A stretch of 64,000 nt of DNA from Linnemannia hyalina. Lineage: Eukaryota > Mortierellomycota > Mortierellomycetes > Mortierellales > Mortierellaceae. The position numbers and the translations under genes were made by a program. Numbering within the stretch: the stretch's first letter is position 1; every line of letters starts with the position of its first letter. Below are positions 13,958 through 27,001 of the stretch, in pieces. Location of the stretch: assembly GCA_019671135.1 (NCBI GenBank), contig JAHRHY010000007.1, positions 2,232,001-2,296,000 of the forward strand. Reading direction: 5' to 3'. Under the pieces are notes generated by a model, which saw only the letters and a list, made by a program, of their open reading frames with translations, was not told where the DNA came from and searched no databases.

Positions 13958-15502
13958 ACCCAGCGGGAGAATGTCGAAGCTTGTCTGTTTTCTGCCTTGC
14001 CCTCGCCTTGCCCAGCGCTTGCCCCGCCCTTTCCATCCAAGATATGATCTACATACAGCCATCTAACAGCATCACATAATACCGCAATACAAAGAACAGA
14101 CTATATCATCTTTGTCAATATGCATTGATCGGGGTTAAGACATATAGTTCCGAAACTATAGAGGGTGGTGCTCTTTTTTTATGGGGTGGTGTGCCTGGTC
14201 TGTGCCTAGAGAATCATTGACGATGAAGGTATCAGTCCCTTTGAAAGAAAGACACCCTCCGCCCGCATGGTAACATGCTCGCGGTGGGTCTATAGATAGG
14301 GAAAAAAAACCATGATCTCCACCGTATTACTTCAAAATAATAATTCACGCCGTGTATCTCAATCAAAAAACATGATCCACGCCTTGTAGATTAAAAAACA
14401 ATCCAGGCCCGTGTAGCTCATAACTATGTTCTACACCGTGTTACTCAAAACCATTGATCTACGCAAGTGTAAATATAAAAATTATCACATTGACATCCAA
14501 TTTGCTGTGTCATTTTCGGCTCTGTTGCCATTTCTCTCCCATGGAACTCAAACGTGCATCAGGTTTTCATTTCCAGTTTTTCAACTCTTTTGAAAAAGTA
14601 TAGACATATCCTTGTGATATATATGTTGAGTGAGATTTGCAGTCTCGCTACTTTTCTACCATAGTAGGGATCTTTCTTTGTAATGGAGGCCCCAAAAAAA
14701 GAGGGAGCGGTCGATTCACAGCTGTCTCAATTCTCTTACTTTCCCATGGATGGATAAGTGTGCTAGTGTTCAAAAAAGAGCAAGAGAGGGACAGAGATAG
14801 ATTCATTCATGGTATGAATGAGTGGATGTTGGTAGCGGCTGAATGTATCGCTAGCTGCAGTACAGTAGCACCTTGGAGAATAGGCTAGGGCTACACGATT
14901 ACTATCAAAGTACTAATACACGGTTATGCTAGACTTGCCTATGCAATAGGCGGAATAGCAGAGACGAAGATTGATTTAAAACATGTTACCCCTTTTCAAC
15001 ATCACGTACGATTGACGCAAGGGAGAAAACAAAGGCAAAAGGCACAGAAAAGAACTCGGCATTGACGGATAGGTCGTCATAAACGACCCAATGATGATTT
15101 AACATTTCGCACATGAAATGATTTCTCGTCGTCCATAGCGACTGCTTCTCCCCCTCACTCACATTGATTGGCGGGGTGAAATGTGCAACTGAAATAGCTT
15201 CGGATTTTTTTTTTTTACAGTAGGCTCGGAAAACAGACACGCGCGAAAAGAAATGAACTATTCGTCCATGTTCCGTGGACGGTGACCGGCATGACGAAAC
15301 GTTACATCGACTCCCACGCCCACCAGTCATTCCTTTTCGCGCATACGCGGGTATGACGGAGCGAGGATATCATCTCCGAGATCTCGCTCTACGCCACGCC
15401 CCACTCAAAGTTGGGCGATCCCTCTCGTGCTTAAAACGTCGGTCTTTTTCTCTTTTTTTTTCCTCATCTCAATACACAGCAACACCCTCGCCTTCCTTGG
15501 TA
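13958..15502. other. spacer with degenerate tandem repeat
   Basis: This spacer holds the 3' side of the Cys-rich gene, the degenerate repeat at 14303-14480 (listed separately), and the promoter of the hemerythrin gene. An ATTGG (inverted CCAAT box) lies at 15167-15171 and a T-run at about 15207-15218. No gene is recognised in 14500-15200. Confidence 0.55.
14303..14480. repeat. degenerate about 30-bp tandem repeat
   Basis: About six diverged units alternate an A-rich stretch with a core like catgatccacgccgtgta or ctacaccgtgttactca. Unit starts are near 14303, 14334, 14365, 14393, 14425 and 14447. Spacing is uneven and identity moderate, which suggests an old minisatellite. Confidence 0.5.
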
Positions 15503-16429
15503 ATGCTCTCGTCCCGTATTCATCTCATCAAACCTATCGCCACCACTCGCTTCTATCTTTCGCTACCTCGCATCACCACGTCTCTCTGCCACAACCACCA
15601 CCTTTTCACCACCACCCCAGTCGCCGCCATGTCGCACGCTGCTTCCGCTTCCGCTTCCGCTGAAACCCTCAATGGTATCTCGGACCCGGTCAAGAAGGAC
15701 CACAGAGAGCTCGAGGAGTACTACAACAACATCCTCAGTGCCAACACCGAGGATGAAAAAACGCGCTGGGCCAACCAGTTTGTTTGGGAACTTGCCCGCC
15801 ACAGTGTTGGGGAGGAATTAATCATGTACCCTTGCATGAGGAAGGTTCTTCGGAATGGGGATGCTATGGTTGAGAAGGATCTCGCCGAGCACCAAGAGGT
15901 AATTATGATTGCTTTGCTCCTCGATGTTTTGTTCAGTGGGTGTCTCTTGTTGTGATGTGAACGTATGGCTATAACTCGTCGAGAGAGAGACAGAGATGTT
16001 TTGGAGATCATATTCTCTGCCACGCTAAAGAGAACCGTGTGAGCAAATCATCTAACCACCCATTTCCCCTCCCGCCTTTTTCTTTGCTTAACAACATACA
16101 CAAAAAAGGTCAAGGAGCAACTGTTCAAGTTCCAAAATTTGAATTCGGCCGACCGATCCTTCGAGCCCCTCCTCCGCACCATTTGGACAGACTTGTCCAA
16201 GCACATTAAAGAAGAAGAGGAGAATGACCTCGTCCAGCTCGAGCAGGCCCTCTCCTCCGAGGAGTCCATTGATCTCGCAAAGAGTTTCCAGCGCACAAAG
16301 AAGTTCGTCCCGACTCGTTCTCACCCCTCTGCGCCCAACCAGCCCCCGTTTGAGACTGTTGTGGGATTGTTGACGGCGCCGATGGATAAGTTGAAGGATC
16401 TTTTTGCGCGCTTCCCCAAGGATAATTAG
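15503..16429 (+). CDS. hemerythrin HHE-domain protein, possible mitochondrial targeting
   Basis: Seen: two exons, 15503-15898 and 16109-16429 (phase 0), give 238 residues. Iron-ligand candidates follow the HHE pattern: His67 (KKDHREL), His100 with a nearby Glu (ARHSVGEE), His130 (AEHQEV) and His164 (KHIKEEEEND). Known: HHE proteins bind a di-iron or single metal centre and act in oxygen, iron or NO sensing or storage. The first 42 residues are rich in Arg, Ser, Thr and hydrophobics without acids, as in a mitochondrial presequence. A second in-frame ATG at 15629 has a stronger context (gccgccATGtcg) and would give the bare domain. Two start sites could give two locations (inference). Confidence 0.85.
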
Positions 16430-16640: not shown

Positions 16641-18262
16641 TTAACAACGAAAGACAGGACCAGGGCCAGGCAAATTAAGTGCAGAAAAATAAAGAATAGA
16701 AATACAGATTAGGTGGGGAAGTTGTTGTCGACAAAGGGGAGCTCGACTGGGGGGTGGGGGTTCACGCTCCTCGCTCTGTCGCTTCTTCTCAGCCAACTGA
16801 GCGCGAACTTGGTCAATGGCCAAATCCACCGCGGCAAGTACCATGCGAGGTTCAAAGGCTTGGTCCTCACGGACAAAGGCGTGATGGTACCTCCAGACAG
16901 GGGCCATGATAGTATTAATCACGATGAAGATGGGGATTTCATGACCTGGTTTGACAGGGTCCGGGTCAGGAAAAAAGAGGCTGCAGATGTAGTCCGCAGT
17001 CTAGGTTCGTTCCTCTACATATCTCGACAGTGCTGAACAGGAGGTGCTGACATTTCTTCAGATCAATTCCACAGACACGGCAGAGGGACTCAACCATATC
17101 AGGAATAATGGAGTGAAGGTGGAGGCCAGAGGGAAGTTTGTTGATCAGGAGCCGCCACCAGACATTGCGCGCATTGTGCAGGATCTTGTTCTTCCAGAAG
17201 GATGACCAGAGGGATGTCCAGAAGGTGGCAGTGAGTGGTGGGGGCGGTGTGATCATGGGTGAGTGATATGGTGCTGGGGTTGGAGGGCGGTAGGACTTGG
17301 AGGAAATCATCTGTCGAAACGCGCGGGTACTGGCTAATTCGAAGGTACCGTTCTCAGACTTGTGGATAACGATCCCGTTTGTGCGTTCCGCCAGGTCGTC
17401 AACCAAGTCGAAAGACCCGTCATTGTCTAAGGCCCGTCTCAGGGCTGGGTGCGCCTTGAAGTGACCATTCCTGGTGTTCTCCTCCAACCTTGAGTGGGTG
17501 CGGTGGCCGACGGATCGCTCCTCCATTGGAATAAACTCCAGTCTGCCTTCTGTCTTGGCCTCGTCCGTCCATACAGGTCTGAAGACACAATCCATGAGCC
17601 AGTTAGGAGGGTGAGGCTCTGGAACATTATCCGGCTTGAGCCATTGTGGGAGGAGTATTGCCATCATGGTCCCGACTTCCAACGAACCCCCTGTTTCCTG
17701 ACCCCAAGACAGTCCAGAGGTACGCTCTACCGCCTGCGCCATACCCTTGAGAATCGTGTGTGACAAAAGTATTTCCTCTTCGCCGTGAGAAAGAAAAGAG
17801 GGGCTAGCGAACGGGGCCAACGGAAACTCAGATTCTGTTGCTGATCGGGGAAGATCCATGAAGAAGCATATCATGAAGGAGGTAGTGTCGGAACAAATTC
17901 TCTGAACCGCTTGCAGCTGGAGTGCGACAGTCTGGGATCCAATGTCGACAAGACCAAGCCCACACTGGGACCGCCGGAGGCAGAGGTGGTTCCAGGATGG
18001 AGATGGCAAGAAAGGAACAGTGAACTTGCTGATCGATCCTTGGACTTTCTTCATCCATTGGCGCGTTGGCGGGTGGACGGCGATGATGGACGTGCCAGAA
18101 GCGGGAAAGCAAGAGGGAGTTGGCGATGATGCTGCGTCCCAGGACCGATAGTTGGCGACCGTACTGTACGTTGATATGGTGTTTGATTTTTTGTGTATGC
18201 TGTCGAAGAGGGGGGTAGGGTAACCCAAATAGACCAGTATCTTCGAGGATTTTTTCTTACCA
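16641..18262 (-). mobile_element. dead 5'-truncated LINE (non-LTR retrotransposon) fragment
   Basis: Seen: a minus-strand frame open over about 420 codons (from about 18262 to 16966). It begins at a reverse-transcriptase KILVYLGYPT-like motif. It runs through the post-RT region (GLGLVDIGSQTVALQLQ) and a zf-RVT segment (WWRLLINKLPSG, ESLCRVCGIDLKKCQHLLFS). A frame change near 16970 leads to the tail frame 16922-16641 (WRYHHAFVREDQAFEP). The RT fingers, palm and endonuclease are missing, as expected from 5' truncation during insertion. Stop codons precede the frame upstream. Not functional. Confidence 0.75.
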
Positions 18263-18705
18263 CGTCAACGATCACATGATAAAATCAACATTCCTTTCAA
18301 CATCCCTCCCGTTACACCTTGATGTCAGAGCGGCAACTTCCCCTTCAAAAAAAATATCTCCCGCTGTTGTCAATTGATGCTTTCTCCTTATTCTGTCCAT
18401 TGGTCTTTGTATCTCTTGATCTTTTGACTTTCTCCCTTGCCTTAGTACCTTCCTCAATCGTACGGCGGTCCTCCTCCGTGCCCTTGATCTTTTTGGAATC
18501 CCTCCCTCCCTCCCTGCCTGCTACTCTATGAGCGACCTCTCCCTTCTGATTCCTGCAAGATCTTTACCCATTTCTTATTTAGTATCATTAATATTTTACG
18601 TTTGTTGCAAGACATTCTCTTTCACATCCACATTTACAAACTTTCAGTTCTCAACAACCGCTTCACTCAAATCAACTCTACATACCAAAGCCTTCTCATT
18701 CAAAA
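18263..18705. other. promoter and leader of the micro-exon gene
   Basis: Pyrimidine-rich sequence with AT-rich stretches (tttagtatcattaatatttt near 18580) precedes a CA-rich leader ending caaaaATG at 18706. No separate gene is seen. Confidence 0.5.
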
Positions 18706-19968
18706 ATGCAGCTCCAATATCTGTTCATTATCTGCGTTCTTGTTAGCTTTGCTGCCGCTGCTCCTATGTATGTAATCACCGTCAATGCTAAAGATCCTCC
18801 CCATAGCAGTGCTGTAGCATTGGAGATCAATAATGGAAGAGCATCCTAGGTTCAAGGAATAATTGTTATTATTATACACAAATGCAATAACAACGAGTAC
18901 AATACGGCAGCTTACAAGAGGAGCAGGAGCATTGTTAAGGTGATAGCTAATATGATTTCTTTCTGTTACCTCTTGTTTGGCATTGTCCCATCTCTAATAG
19001 TCCGTAAGTTGATACACAAACCCTACAGCAGCTACTAGATATGACAACTGTCGAGTGGGATAGGGGTATTGTTGAGGCGATAACTAACATGTTATCTCTA
19101 TATTGATTATTTGTTGGTATTCTTGTCCTATCTCTAATAGCCAGTAAGTTGATACACAGATCCCACAGCAGCTACTGTGATATGATTACCGTCGAGAGGG
19201 ATACAAGTGTTGTTGAGGCGTTAACTAATACGTTTTATCTTTGTTGCTTCTTGCTTGGTATTCTCTTCCCATCTCTAATAGCGGGTAAGTTGATATACAG
19301 ATCCCACAGTAGCTACTTGTGATATGAAAACTGTCGAGTGGGATGCGAGTATTGTTGAGGCGATACCTAATTTGTTTTATATCTGTTGCTTCTTGCTTGG
19401 TATTGTCGTCCCATCTATAATAGACTGTAAGTTGACACTCAGATCCCACAGCAGCTACTGCGATATGACTGATGTCGAGTGAGATACGGGTATTGTCGAG
19501 GCGATAACTAATATGTTTTATCTGTGTTGCTTCTTGCTGTCGTTCCATCTCTAATAGTGGGTAAGTTGATGCACAGATCCTACAGTAGCTACTGGGATAT
19601 GGCTGCTGTTGAGTGGGATGCGAGTATTGTTGAGGCGATAACTAATTTGTTTTATATCTGTTGCTTCTTGCTTGGTATTGTCGTCCCATCTATAATAGAC
19701 TGTAAGTTGATACACTGATCCCTCAGCAACAACCGTGATATGACTGCTCTCGAGTGGGATACGAGTATTGTTGAGGCAATAACTAATATGTTTCTCTGTG
19801 TTGCTTCTTGCTGTCGTTCCATCTCTAACAGTGGGTAAGTTGATGCACAGATCCTACAGTAGCTACTGGGATATGACTGCTGTTGAGTGGGATATGAGTA
19901 TTGTGAACTAACAACTAAAATGTATTTTGTGGTGCGTGAATATTAGATCTCGGCTTCCTAACTTATAA
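18706..19968 (+). CDS. predicted secreted peptide gene built from tandem introns and 3-nt micro-exons
   Basis: Seen: exon 1 (18706-18767) encodes MQLQYLFIICVLVSFAAAAP plus two bases, ending at a GTATGT donor. Then follow seven 3-base slots, each between an AATAG or AACAG acceptor and a GTAAGTTGA donor: 19001-19003 TCC, 19141-19143 CCA, 19282-19284 CGG, 19424-19426 ACT, 19558-19560 TGG, 19699-19701 ACT, 19832-19834 TGG. The last exon is 19947-19968. Introns are 233, 137, 138, 139, 131, 138, 130 and 112 bp, normal for this window. Spliced, the frame is continuous and stops at TAA; the part after the signal peptide reads IPHGLGLGSRLPNL (34 residues in total). Intron 1 retention would instead give an open 47-codon reading to 18849. 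Inferred: a small secreted peptide of unknown role. Splicing is unproven; the slots could be skipped as one long intron, which also stays in frame. Confidence 0.6.
18930..19910 (+). repeat. tandem array of 130-140 bp intron modules
   Basis: Seven full or partial copies share this order: GTAAGTTGATACACAGATCC, an acagcagctact box, a gatatga box, gtcgagtgggatacgagtattgttgaggcgata, a branch-like ACTAAT or CTAAC, ttgcttcttgcttggtattgtcgtcccatct, and a terminal AATAG. The three bases between each terminal AG and the next GTAAGT are the least conserved part. Modules carrying ACT and TGG occur twice in the same order, which shows a two-module duplication. Confidence 0.9.
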
Positions 19969-21888
19969 TTCGGAGTTGTCGATTTTATATCATTGGTCGG
20001 TGGACCTTCTAATTTCCTATCAAGAAATGGGTTTTGACGCAGACATTCATCTAGGATATTGTTACAATCCCATTAAAGCGCGTTCATGACAAAAGTGGAC
20101 CTTTCGAAAAATAAACATTTTTGTGTGAAGATAACCTCGGTAGAGTTGGTAGGTGAGGTGACTGATGAAATATTGTTGGGAATCTAGACGTGGACAGAGC
20201 AGAATGGCCATTCTCTAGACGCGGCGAGAGAGGAGATGAAGGGGACAGAGATGAAAAAGGAAGGATTAGGTGATTGTGGTGAATTTGCATGCGAAGATGA
20301 ATGATTTTCACTTATTCTCCTAGAAGACCAGAGACCGAGGATGTGTGTGACCTATTTTAATATGATCGAGAAAAACAATACAAAACAATAAATGGAGGGA
20401 ACTATAGGAGCTGGACCCCTACCTTAATTTACGCGAAGAAGAATCAAAAACAGGCAAACGAAAAGAGGGAGAAGCAATTGCTTGAACAGCTGTCGATCGC
20501 GAAAAATCGACGCCATTGTCCATCAATGCGATTTTAGTGACATCTCTTCCCCATCTTTTTAATTCTTTTCTTTTTCTTTCGCCGCAAGGCTCAGCTTTCA
20601 ACATCTTTTTTTTTTTCGTACACAATTTTATTTCTTTGATAAACAGCACAGAAAAATCATTTGGAAGTAATGGGGACTACAGACCAAACTCTTCAATGCG
20701 CCATCCACCAGTTGCGGTCCGGTCCAGAACCTGGCTCTGCACGACAATTGTCGCTGCTCTTCACGGCTTAAAACGGAAGAAAATAAACCAAGATACGAAT
20801 AAAAGGGATTCTCCCCATCCTCTCCTTCATTGATAACCTACCTCTCCCTAACAAACTCTCTGTCGCGTTGTTCCCTATGATCAGTCGACTCTCGACGTGA
20901 TCGGTCGACCCTTGGCATAATCAGTTGATCGTTGGGCGCAGCCAACTGCGCCCAAGATAATTAATTAGCTTCGCTCCCAAAACATATATATATATCTCAT
21001 AGCACCCACCCCAAATACCTTTACCTAGTAACTTGAATAATACTTTGTCTACTCCTTGAAACCTCATATCTGATTCTCTGTTCCATTTGTTCTCTTCCCT
21101 CCACCTCTCTCCTTGATCTTGCATAAGAATAGGTCAACCCTGCCTTGTTCTACTCTAGATCTTTGACACTCTACAACAACCGCTCATCAGAAGCGGAGGG
21201 TCCTTGGTCGCTCCAGGGCAGGTTCCATCCTTGTGTGTGGCTAGCGAAGTGCCACACGGGCAGAAAACATCACGGGTGATGTAGCCGTATCCCTAACTCC
21301 TGTCACCTCAGGGGCCTGTGTACTAGGATGTCTTGTCCTTGGTAGAGATGCCCTGGGTCTGTTCCCACGCGATCGTCTCGGAGTATAGAACTTTCCAGAT
21401 TAGCTCTTAGGCCTGCGTCTCCAGGTAGCCAACAACTTGTGCAGAACCGTCTCGGCGATGGACATTGGGGTCCAGAAGACCGTGGACCATTCAACCAACA
21501 TATTCTTGGGAGGATGTCGCGGAGGAGATCCGATATGTTCCACTTGGGATTCTCGTTGCGGTCGGGAGTAGGACTACCGCTGTGCACAGCTCGAGTTCCA
21601 CTGATAGAGGTGAACTCTCGTACATGATCCGCATCCGAAGGGGGCAGCCAGTGTATGGGTACTGGCCTCGGCACTTGATGACCTTTGTCAAACCGCGCGT
21701 TTGTGTTCCCGTTTCCTGGCTGCGTTGTAGCTGTTTGTCGCCTGCACACCCCACTCGTGTCAAATAAAAAATAAAAAAAGATTTGCAACATCCAAGCCTC
21801 CATTCCTTCCTATATGGCTATTTCTTCCCTTGATTTTTCAACACCAACTACAACAGCCGCTCGACATCTGCAACCACAACACGTACGC
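19969..21888. other. spacer with short repeats and a possible retroelement relic
   Basis: The left part is the 3' side of the micro-exon gene. At 20880-20955 there are 20-bp direct repeats and a hairpin (listed). A tatatatatat run lies near 20985. From about 21180 to 21770, short overlapping frames on both strands have protein-like composition (for example a plus-strand frame 21465-21767 with EEIRYVPLGILVAVGS). No known domain could be named; this may be decayed retroelement sequence. No RNA gene is seen. Confidence 0.45.
20880..20955. repeat. 20-bp direct repeats followed by a 10-bp hairpin
   Basis: Three imperfect 20-base units (20880-20899, 20900-20919, 20920-20939) share atc(a/g)gt(c/t)ga at their start. 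The third runs into a perfect inverted repeat, TTGGGCGCAG at 20932-20941 against 20946-20955, with a ccaa loop. Confidence 0.7.
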
Positions 21889-24122: not shown

Positions 24123-27001
24123 TTAATCAATATCCATATCCTTGGACTCGTCGTGCTTGGTCTCCTCCTTGGACTCGGCCTTCTCCTCAGAAGCAGGGGT
24201 CTCGACGGGGGTCTCGACAACAACGGGCTTGGGCTTGGGCTTGTTCAAGATGGGGGTGGCAAAGTAGACGATATCATCGCGCTGCTTGCGGACCTCGGCA
24301 GATGTGAAGGCAGGGGTCTCGTACTTCTTCATCATCGACTGGCGCTCGAGCTTGTTCTCGATCCAGGTCTGGGCCTTGGAGCACTTCTCGATGATCGAGT
24401 TCTTCTCGGCCTCGGGGATGTGGGCGTACTTCTCCTCAGAGCTGGTGGCCTGGGCCATCAAGTGGTTGATCGACTCGCGGAGCTCGCGGGCGGCGTTGGC
24501 ACGGGCCTCGACTTCGCGGTAACGCTCAGTGACGGGCTTGCCAACAACGTGGAGCTCGCCCAACTTGGCGGCGTAGACAGACTTGGTGGTCTCGTCACCC
24601 TCTTCGTACAACCAGTTCTCGGCATCGTTCAAATCGGCGACGAACTTCTCCTTGTCAGCGGGGTTGATGAAGTCCTTGTAGACACCATCGACCTTGGCGC
24701 GGGTGTCGTAGATGTACTCCTCCAAAGTGTTCTTGGCCATCTCGGTATCAACGACCAACTTGTCGGAGGCGATCATCTCCATCTCCTTCTCGCGCAACTC
24801 GCTGACGAGGGCACGGTCCAAGGATGAGGTGGCGCTGACAACAGTGAGGTCACCCTTCTTGACCAGCTTCTTGACCTTGCGGGTCGAGGGAGCCTCAGCA
24901 GCGGCTTCTTCACCCTCAGCGGGGGCGGCCTCAGTCTTGGACTCCTCGACCTGCTCCTCCTTGACGACCTCCTCAACAACGTAGGCGGACTCGACGGTGA
25001 GGACACCATGGATGTTGACTCTGGCCTTGACCTTGACGCAGGCAGCCTCACCGTTGACGGGTTCGACACCCTTGATGGAGAAGCGGGCGATCCAGGGGTT
25101 GATACCGGCGGGGATCGACTCGGGCTCGGCGTACTGGGCCTCGAGATCGAAGGGGGCAGAGCGGTAGAAGGTCAAGATCTTAGTCGAAGGGATGGCGTTG
25201 TTCTTGTTGAAGACGACGAGCTCGGTATCCTCCTCCTCGGGGGTAGGCTGCCAGGTCATCTTGATGGGGTAGTTGGTGATATCCTGGACAGTGAAGTCAC
25301 GGACCTTGAAGGCGGGTGACAAGATGGCACACTGGAGGGCGGCACCACGGGCAATGGCCTCATCCTGGTTCAAGGTGGCAGAGATGTCCTTCTTGAAGAA
25401 AGCCTGGATGCGCTCCTTGAGGGCGGGGATACGGGTAGAACCTCCGACAATCTCGACGGCATCAATCTCATCGACGGTCAAACCGGCATCATCCAAAGCC
25501 TTCTGGAGAGGGGCCTCAACGCGGGAGATCAACTCCTGGGCGAGCTCCTCAAACTCGGCACGCTTCATCATCGAAGCAACATCGCGATCCTCCATGATCG
25601 ACTCGATGTTAAGGGGAGCCTGGGCGTTGGCAGAGAGAATCTTCTTGAGCTTCTCGCATCCGGCCATGAGACGGATCAAAGCCTTGCCGTTGGACTTGAC
25701 ATCGATACCGTACTTGGTCTTGAACTCGGCAGCAAAGTGGTCGACCAACATGCGGTCAAAGTCACGACCACCAAAGTGTCTGTCAAAGGCACGGGACTTG
25801 ACGGTGAGCTGACCCTTGATGAAGGAGACGACCGAAACGGTGTAGGACGAGTGACCGACATCGACAAAGCAGACGTTGCGGGGCTTGTCCTCGGGCAAGT
25901 CCGTCTTGGTGATACCGTAACCGAGAGCGACGGCGGTCGAGTCGTTGATGAGGCGGAGGACGTTCAAGCCAGCGATCTCGGAGGCATCGAGAACAGCGCG
26001 GCGCTGGACATCGGTGAACCAGGAGGGGATGGCAATGACGCAGTCCGAGACGGGCATCTTGGTCTCGCTGGCAGCAATCTCCCTCATCTTGGTGAGGTAC
26101 ATGGCAAAGATCTGGGTGGTGGTGAAGGTCGCCTCCTCGCCCTTGTAGTTGACCTTGACGGAGAGCTGACCGTTGACATCAACGAGAGGGGCGGTCAAGT
26201 ACTGCTTCTCGATCTCCTGAACCTCCTTGTCAGCGAAAGTGCGTCCGATAATGCGCTTCAAGGACGAGATGGTGTTCTTGAAGTTGGAGATCTCCTGAGT
26301 CTTGGCGGTCTCTCCGAGGTAACGCTGCTTAGGGCCGAACGAAACCAACGACTAAGTGCATGTAACAAATGAAACCATTGAGTGTGAGTAAGGTGTATGA
26401 TATCCATGAGTATGTTCCTTGTGCACGCGACAACAGAGATAATACGTACGGGAGTGAAGCGGTTGGAGACTTCGTTGCAGATAACATCGATACCGCGGTT
26501 TCTGGCGACGGCGATAACCGACTGCAAGTTTCCGAAATCAATACCTATTTGTTTAATGATGACCGTTTACTGCAGGTTAGCAGACAGCCAACGTCTCTTG
26601 TTTTCTCTCTTTCTCTCTCGCTCGCTCGCTCTCTCTCTCTCCTGTAGCAAGGGTAAGCCTTTTGCTTGCTCTCCACGTGATTTCAGGCCCTATTCTCCTG
26701 TTTGTTGTACTCTGTCGAGGGGATGTATCATGGATCGGTATAGTGTTTGGAAAGCTGTTTGTTTGTCCAGGTCCAAGCGCAGTACTCGAAGCAGGGGTTC
26801 GCTGTGTGTGTTGAAAGGTATGCAGTGGGTCGCACACAGATGAACTGCTCAGGACAGGGTTGAAGGGCAGCATCACTCTCCGTTTCCTGAGGTTGTTTGA
26901 TGTTCCTGATGTAATGGAGTGTAGGTTGTTGCAATGGTTCCTTGTGTGGATGTGTGGTCCTGTTGTTGCCCTCGAAGTGTTGACATACCAACGACAGACA
27001 T
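24123..27001 (-). CDS. SSE1: Hsp110/Sse1-type chaperone, nucleotide exchange factor of Hsp70
   Basis: Seen: three exons, 27001-26989 (only 13 bases), 26544-26450 and 26351-24123, with phases 1 and 0, give 778 residues. The ATPase start is MSVVGIDFGNLQSVIAVARN, and VSNRFTPSLVSFGPKQRYLG matches yeast Sse1. FVDVGHSSYTVSVV, HFGGRDFD and IVGGSTRIPALK are phosphate and adenosine motifs. A substrate-like domain with an acidic, Glu/Ala-rich insertion (about residues 520-545) and a helical bundle follow, and the end is DESKDMDID, like the DVDMD end of Sse1. Known: Sse1 releases ADP from cytosolic Hsp70, holds unfolded proteins and takes part in disaggregation. Odd: the tiny first exon would be missed by ORF-based calling. 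Intron 1 is 444 bp. Confidence 0.95.

Follow-up and report, generated by a model that had tools for sequence, protein, structure and literature searches.

Layout of the locus and its surroundings

We describe here a tandem array in the window, by which we mean the whole stretch of 64,000 nucleotides that was analysed from Linnemannia hyalina, a soil fungus of the Mortierellaceae. The array lies behind an exon-like stretch of 62 bases that opens with ATG at 18706, ends in CCTAT directly before the donor GTATGT and encodes MQLQYLFIICVLVSFAAAAP, which, judged by eye, is likely a signal peptide. Downstream, the sequence AATAG or AACAG, exactly three bases and then GTAAGTTGA recur at seven of seven junctions, just as the first-pass annotation had described for its seven modules. 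The six units between these junctions measure 137, 138, 139, 131, 138 and 130 bp, and TRF describes the array either as a 141-bp period with 7.1 copies (18927-19904) or as a 283-bp dimer with 3.3 copies (18988-19904). The triplets follow in the order TCC, CCA, CGG, ACT, TGG, ACT, TGG, in which the ACT-TGG pair occurs twice, as in a tandem duplication. That modules start with GTAAGT is true of all seven window junctions, but the first intron-like stretch also includes a diverged unit lacking this start. Altogether, eight intron-like stretches come after exon 1: the first measures 233 bp, the next six 130-139 bp each, and the end of the last is uncertain. Each triplet would provide position 3 of one codon and positions 1 and 2 of the next. 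Phase 2 is preserved by every triplet in the predicted model, hence all splice combinations stay in frame, as had been annotated. Beyond exon 1 the following gene model is a prediction.

18259-20424, plus strand: duplicated block, one gene unit, with DNA matches to contig C44
18575-18705, plus strand: conserved upstream stretch, possibly 5' UTR; 13 of 111 aligned bases differ between the copies, with 22 gap columns
18706-18767, plus strand: exon 1, putative signal peptide, ending in phase 2
18706-18849, plus strand: unspliced 47-aa ORF (alternative gene product), open in both copies
18768-19000, plus strand: intron 1, GTATGT to AATAG, its 3' part being the diverged unit
19001-19003, plus strand: predicted micro-exon 1, TCC
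19004-19140, plus strand: intron unit, 137 bp
19141-19143, plus strand: predicted micro-exon 2, CCA
19144-19281, plus strand: intron unit, 138 bp
19282-19284, plus strand: predicted micro-exon 3, CGG
19285-19423, plus strand: intron unit, 139 bp
19424-19426, plus strand: predicted micro-exon 4, ACT
19427-19557, plus strand: intron unit, 131 bp
19558-19560, plus strand: predicted micro-exon 5, TGG
19561-19698, plus strand: intron unit, 138 bp
19699-19701, plus strand: predicted micro-exon 6, ACT, dimer copy of micro-exon 4
19702-19831, plus strand: intron unit, 130 bp
19832-19834, plus strand: predicted micro-exon 7, TGG, dimer copy of micro-exon 5
19835-20042, plus strand: putative last intron in the preferred model, an ambiguous assignment (alternative end 20054; end in the first-pass annotation 19946)
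19947-19968, plus strand: terminal exon of the first-pass annotation, ending in SRLPNL and a stop, without a counterpart in the copy
20043-20076, plus strand: putative terminal coding exon in the preferred model, ending in HSSRILLQSH and a stop
20108-20115, plus strand: AAAATAAA, which may be a poly(A) signal and is shared by the two copies

Some of the conserved flanking motifs may have promoter or poly(A) roles. Just upstream of the array, on the minus strand (16969-18228), lies an open frame of 420 aa whose zf-RVT match stays below threshold (24.3 bits, cut-off 27.5) and which is likely a retroelement remnant, and further upstream an open frame at 15275-15952 carries a hemerythrin domain (PF01814, 37 bits). 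On the other side of the array, 20604-20860 and 21168-21758 are pieces of a dispersed repeat, probably a transposable element. The start of this repeat, near 20600-20660, has at least 44 matches among the 52 matches listed (40 of 140 candidates scored), and four loci extend it, mostly at 83-89% identity. A different dispersed repeat (20303-20424) has copies on contigs C5, C12, C18, C33 and C44, with facing arms on C5 and C12 (foldback, MITE-like). Its position matches the right-hand end of the duplicated block, and it may have assisted in moving that block.

A second copy on another contig

The genome that was searched comprises 51.5 Mb in 50 contigs. By DNA search it contains one further full locus, on contig C44, at 83% identity. 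The single array that had been annotated is real, but it is one of two loci. Window positions 18259-18452, 18571-18705, 18700-19343 and 19958-20424 match C44:219294-220756, with an identity of 559/741 in the 5' alignment, including its poorly matching far end, and of 477/575 in the 3' alignment. Exon 1, the GTATGT donor and the first intron recur in the C44 copy, which has just three triplets, ACC, CTT and CGA, and at one of its three junctions the donor is GTAGGT, a weaker site, rather than GTAAGT. Exon 1 differs at 3 of 62 bases (4.8%) and all three changes are synonymous, while the aligned non-coding stretches of flank and intron differ by 10-17%. Small as this number of changes is, it suggests purifying selection on exon 1. 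In the predicted peptides, the first two array residues (I and P) are identical in both copies, the single base change there being synonymous.

A fragment of exon 1 is found at C13:358393-358466 on the minus strand, with an in-frame stop and unrelated flanks. It is 84% identical to the C44 copy over 74 bases. Its homology stops at the last base of exon 1, whether the window or the C44 copy is used as query. As this is the proposed splice site, the fragment gives independent, modest support for the exon 1 boundary.

A genome search for further arrays, which the first-pass annotation had proposed, yielded the C44 copy and, for splice signals of the window type, no other clusters. With up to two mismatches CTAATAGNNNGTAAGTTGA has 20 matches in the genome, compared to 27 for the reversed control. 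The junctions nevertheless go beyond chance: the ten matches with no or one mismatch are exactly the seven window junctions and the three C44 junctions, and the ten with two mismatches are scattered; clusters at up to two mismatches occur at the window and C44 loci only. For AATAGNNNGTAAGT there are 27 genome matches against 36 in the control; six of the 27 form a cluster at the window locus, and a second cluster outside this locus is absent among the matches listed. The pattern AG-NNN-GTRAGT behind a strong pyrimidine tract, which does not fit the array's own junctions, was found 23 times against 41 in the reversed control, with none clustered on one strand; by this strong-tract search there is no sign that the organism commonly uses exons of 3 nt. 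A genome-wide family of such arrays was rejected for window-type splice signals, since clusters exist at two loci only; arrays with other signals would be missed by these patterns. Two protein searches with the 47-aa ORF, which contains exon 1, revealed no relatives in a set of 5.8 billion proteins under a criterion of three shared near-identical words. Four weak tblastn matches of the same ORF (two on C23, one each on C46 and C18; E 0.08-0.34) were taken as chance.

The array is not the only feature of the window with a second copy. The Sse1/Hsp110 gene at 24126-26357 (minus strand) encodes a protein with 93% identity to its Linnemannia exigua counterpart and 89% to the one from L. zychae; a further Sse1 copy, on C12, shares 87% with the L. 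exigua protein. Seen next to the C44 copy of the array, this second Sse1 gene may be a hint of older duplication events in the genome.

Divergence of the triplets and the predicted gene model

The part of the module that differs most is the triplet itself. In an alignment of the ten junctions from both loci, the triplet columns have a mean pairwise difference of 0.733, where random letters would give 0.75, compared to 0.168 for the other 142 columns. The AG and GTA beside the triplet are invariant in this alignment, and AG and GT are intact at 10/10 junctions of the two loci. Between the copies, the triplets differ at 46 of 63 sites across all 21 window-by-copy pairs. Fitted on a tree built without the triplet columns, the module tree being poorly resolved, the triplet rate is 9.4 times that of the module for all ten junctions (2dlnL 29.1), 14.9 times for the eight non-redundant junctions that remain when the recent dimer copies W6 and W7 are left out (2dlnL 24.9) and 14.3 times for the five distinct window junctions alone (2dlnL 16.4). 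In each of the three sets the triplet ranks first in rate among 128 three-column windows; for windows without overlap to it, the top values are 3.8, 4.8 and 9.1 times the module rate with ten, eight and five junctions, respectively. Random column triples attained the observed number of changes in 0, 0 and 15 of 200,000 draws for the same sets. The position of the triplet had been fixed by the earlier reading of the sequence, ahead of the rate test, and the ten junctions represent two loci of one genome, between whose modules sequence exchange is possible.

In a plain minisatellite, as we define it, all parts of the unit evolve together, and here the triplet evolves 9-15 times faster than the module. 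That the triplet is fastest between an invariant AG and GT is not predicted by a plain minisatellite. Compared with DNA from the same duplication that looks neutral, the spacer has changed more, and so it is not simply free of constraint. The simplest cause of this speed would be diversifying selection on the triplets; a local mutational mechanism that holds the length at three may be at work instead, hard as it is to imagine. Hypervariability marks the triplet as special; it does not mark it as translated. The intact AG and GT and the rate contrast are what one would expect of triplets that are not intron sequence, in line with the micro-exons annotated earlier; the splicing of the triplets is a prediction.

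The signals around the triplets are consistent with such splicing. In 10/10 complete introns a CTAAY branch-like motif precedes the intron end by 45-53 nt, and between this motif and the terminal AG there is no other AG, while 5 to 18 AGs lie upstream of it. The last 40 nt of the ten complete introns consist of 68-78% pyrimidine. Module length is within the range of the candidate introns of other window genes, among which GTAAGT and GTATGT donors occur. These candidates stem from an open-frame heuristic, and several of the 27 look false, so that only the lengths and donors of the plausible ones serve as a rough guide; the Hsp70 loci, mostly single long open frames, were left out of the intron statistics. 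One splice across the whole array would remove 1.27 kb, which is long beside these candidates. A structured RNA or a snoRNA host was considered and rejected: Rfam returned one row, with an E value of 1.5 and 14.7 bits where the cut-off is 85, and the RNA folds of eight units are unremarkable (z-scores -1.54 to +1.88).

The terminal exon is ambiguous. The 34-residue product proposed earlier does follow from acceptor 19946, with a stop at 19968, but this acceptor has no aligned counterpart in the C44 copy, and neither does its exon. Among 14 candidate last acceptors, eight lead to a stop that the copy uses as well, which makes such agreement weak evidence when taken by itself. Six of these eight lack the combination of YAG and a nearby branch-like motif. 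A counterpart in the copy and a shared stop occur together with YAG and a branch-like motif no more than 80 nt away at just two acceptors, 20042 and 20054. Both lead to the TAA at 20074-20076 in both copies, with an in-frame length difference of 6 bases. We infer 20042 as the preferred end of the last intron, although several AGs lie ahead of it within this intron. It gives IPHGLGLGHSSRILLQSH and IPFEHRILLNPH as the predicted peptide sequences for the two copies. In this preferred reading, the window product would be the signal peptide followed by (A)P-IP-HGLGLG-HSSRILLQSH, and that of C44 would end in (A)P-IP-FE-HRILLNPH, i.e. two predicted peptides with similar ends and a variable middle.

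Readings of the array and known systems

Taken together, the layout, the intact splice signals and the rate contrast lead us to lean, with modest confidence, towards a micro-exon gene in which exon 1 is followed by tandem introns that each leave a 3-base exon, the product being a small secreted peptide whose mature part would then likely be made up, in large measure, of one hypervariable residue per module. The fungal spliceosome would pair each GTAAGT with the next AG, 130-139 nt further on. Removal of intron 1 would attach three bases to exon 1, directly ahead of a fresh GTAAGT donor, and each further step would lengthen the exon by one triplet in a stepwise, recursive manner, which would also avoid the steric problem of a 3-nt exon. 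Since every triplet is in frame, a change in module number or the skipping of a module would alter the peptide by whole residues. Tandem duplication, including that of the 283-bp dimer, would make the array grow and supply codons, and the observed pattern would result from selection that favours change in the codons while it keeps the splice signals constant. We tentatively propose, as something possible rather than probable, a codon-per-intron architecture, in which each intron duplication adds one codon and selection diversifies the codons, resulting in a length-adjustable secreted peptide, perhaps with splice variants, that acts in recognition or defence. Transcription and secretion are predicted, and a function in recognition or defence is perhaps suggested by analogy to micro-exon genes elsewhere.

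The main rival is that the gene is the unspliced 47-residue ORF (18706-18849), coding for a small secreted peptide, with the array as a minisatellite in its 3' UTR or downstream. We consider this unlikely, but it is the reading to be taken most seriously after the preferred one. The ORF is open in both copies at 89% identity, its start and end segments are conserved, and the 82 bases after exon 1 contain no indels and 8 changes. These changes, three synonymous and five not (counted by eye), give no sign of constraint at the protein level, in contrast to the three of three synonymous changes in exon 1. Also the end of the C13 homology with exon 1 speaks against an unspliced frame, which moreover leaves the change-saturated triplets between AG and GT unexplained. 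The stretch 18768-18849 itself is an open frame to TAG in both copies, with a changed middle between conserved ends, and could be the product of a retained intron; a spliced form and a retained 47-aa form could coexist.

Two further readings we regard as improbable. One of them places the array inside one long intron, with the AG/GT pairs as recursive stepping stones or decoys and the triplets usually absent from the mRNA. Intact AG and GT at ten junctions fit this, and stepwise removal would help with an intron of 1.27 kb, long as it is beside the candidate introns. However, stepwise removal keeps the triplets in the mRNA unless they are skipped, so that this reading shades into the preferred one, and a free spacer is expected to be neutral, yet the triplets differ far more than the 10-17% of the flanking non-coding DNA. 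The other takes the array as a relic, a once-working micro-exon or peptide gene that now decays as a minisatellite. The failure of the protein searches with the 47-aa ORF to find homologues, the in-frame stop that breaks the C13 fragment and the one weak donor in the C44 copy would agree with decay, but exon 1 and the splice signals are still conserved in surroundings that differ by 10-17%. Mobile introner-like introns, inserted repeatedly into older coding sequence with the triplets as old codons, would account for differing triplets between near-identical introns, but seem very improbable, as the insertions would have to fall exactly 3 bases apart each time, further copies of the unit were not found in the genome beyond the two loci, and the ACT-TGG pair is repeated as in a tandem duplication.

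Should the triplets be spliced in as the preferred micro-exon model predicts, the locus would be an extreme micro-exon gene with an array of one-codon exons, in which intron duplication directly creates coding sequence, one residue each time. It would test the lower size of serial exons in fungal splicing and be a case of stepwise splicing that diversifies a protein; it would also suggest a class of peptide genes likely overlooked by standard annotation, their exons being too short to see.

The first-pass annotation named no described system of this kind in fungi. Among the matches listed from open-licence papers, with most subscription papers and preprints lying outside, we found no tandem array of 3-nt exons, and no open-licence paper combined micro-exon, fungal, tandem and effector; genes with micro-exons and exons of 3 bp and 1 nt are nevertheless published. 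In Schistosoma, MEG genes encode secreted variable proteins with an N-terminal signal peptide and many tiny exons, mostly multiples of three and mostly 15 bp (3-81 bp in the abstract, 6-81 bp in the text), with introns of up to 5 kb (PMC10526429). The array described here would resemble them in its putative signal peptide and in its predicted short exons in multiples of three (7 and 3 spacers in the two copies). It would differ in having predicted internal exons of 3 nt throughout, between introns that are tandem repeats of nearly the same sequence, and it belongs to a fungus. The protein searches with the 47-aa ORF returned no MEG protein under the criterion of three shared words. The bicycle genes of aphids encode fast-evolving secreted proteins with many micro-exons, around 17 exons in all, whose internal exons are almost all in phase 2; they carry CYC motifs, and tandem intron repeats are not mentioned in the excerpts of that paper (PMC9168663). 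Likewise, the predicted exons here break after codon base 2 and keep phase 2 throughout, but cysteine is absent behind the signal peptide in the products predicted from acceptors 20042 or 20054, and so are CYC motifs.

Splicing is possible for exons as short as 1-3 nt, as indicated by Fusarium CYP621A, a fungal case with a 1-nt exon conserved in sequence (PMC12940212), and by Drosophila homothorax, with a 3-bp exon (PMC7392893). A micro-exon is also described in Trichoderma Xlr2, in a 2024 paper whose excerpt calls functional micro-exons previously undescribed in filamentous fungi (PMC11121469). As these excerpts present them, the three cases concern a single micro-exon in an ordinary gene, whereas here there is a whole array in which the predicted exon is the most variable part. 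Stwintrons of fungi, as far as the excerpted accounts go, are spliced consecutively by the ordinary spliceosome and consist of one intron that interrupts a splice signal of another; the words 'tandem' and 'micro-exon' are absent from the stwintron paper PMC12403724. The introns here, in contrast, lie side by side, three bases apart, with complete signals flanking each triplet. Intron gain by tandem duplication has been described as creating an extra intron (excerpt of PMC4974935), while for the array we propose that this was repeated many times, each round adding a codon. Introners, in the accounts excerpted, are near-identical introns in many genes of a genome, unlike the units here at two loci only. 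The nearest serial micro-exons among the matches listed are the three in a row in human RPS24 and an adjacent pair of 5 and 12 bp reported from an alga and land plants.
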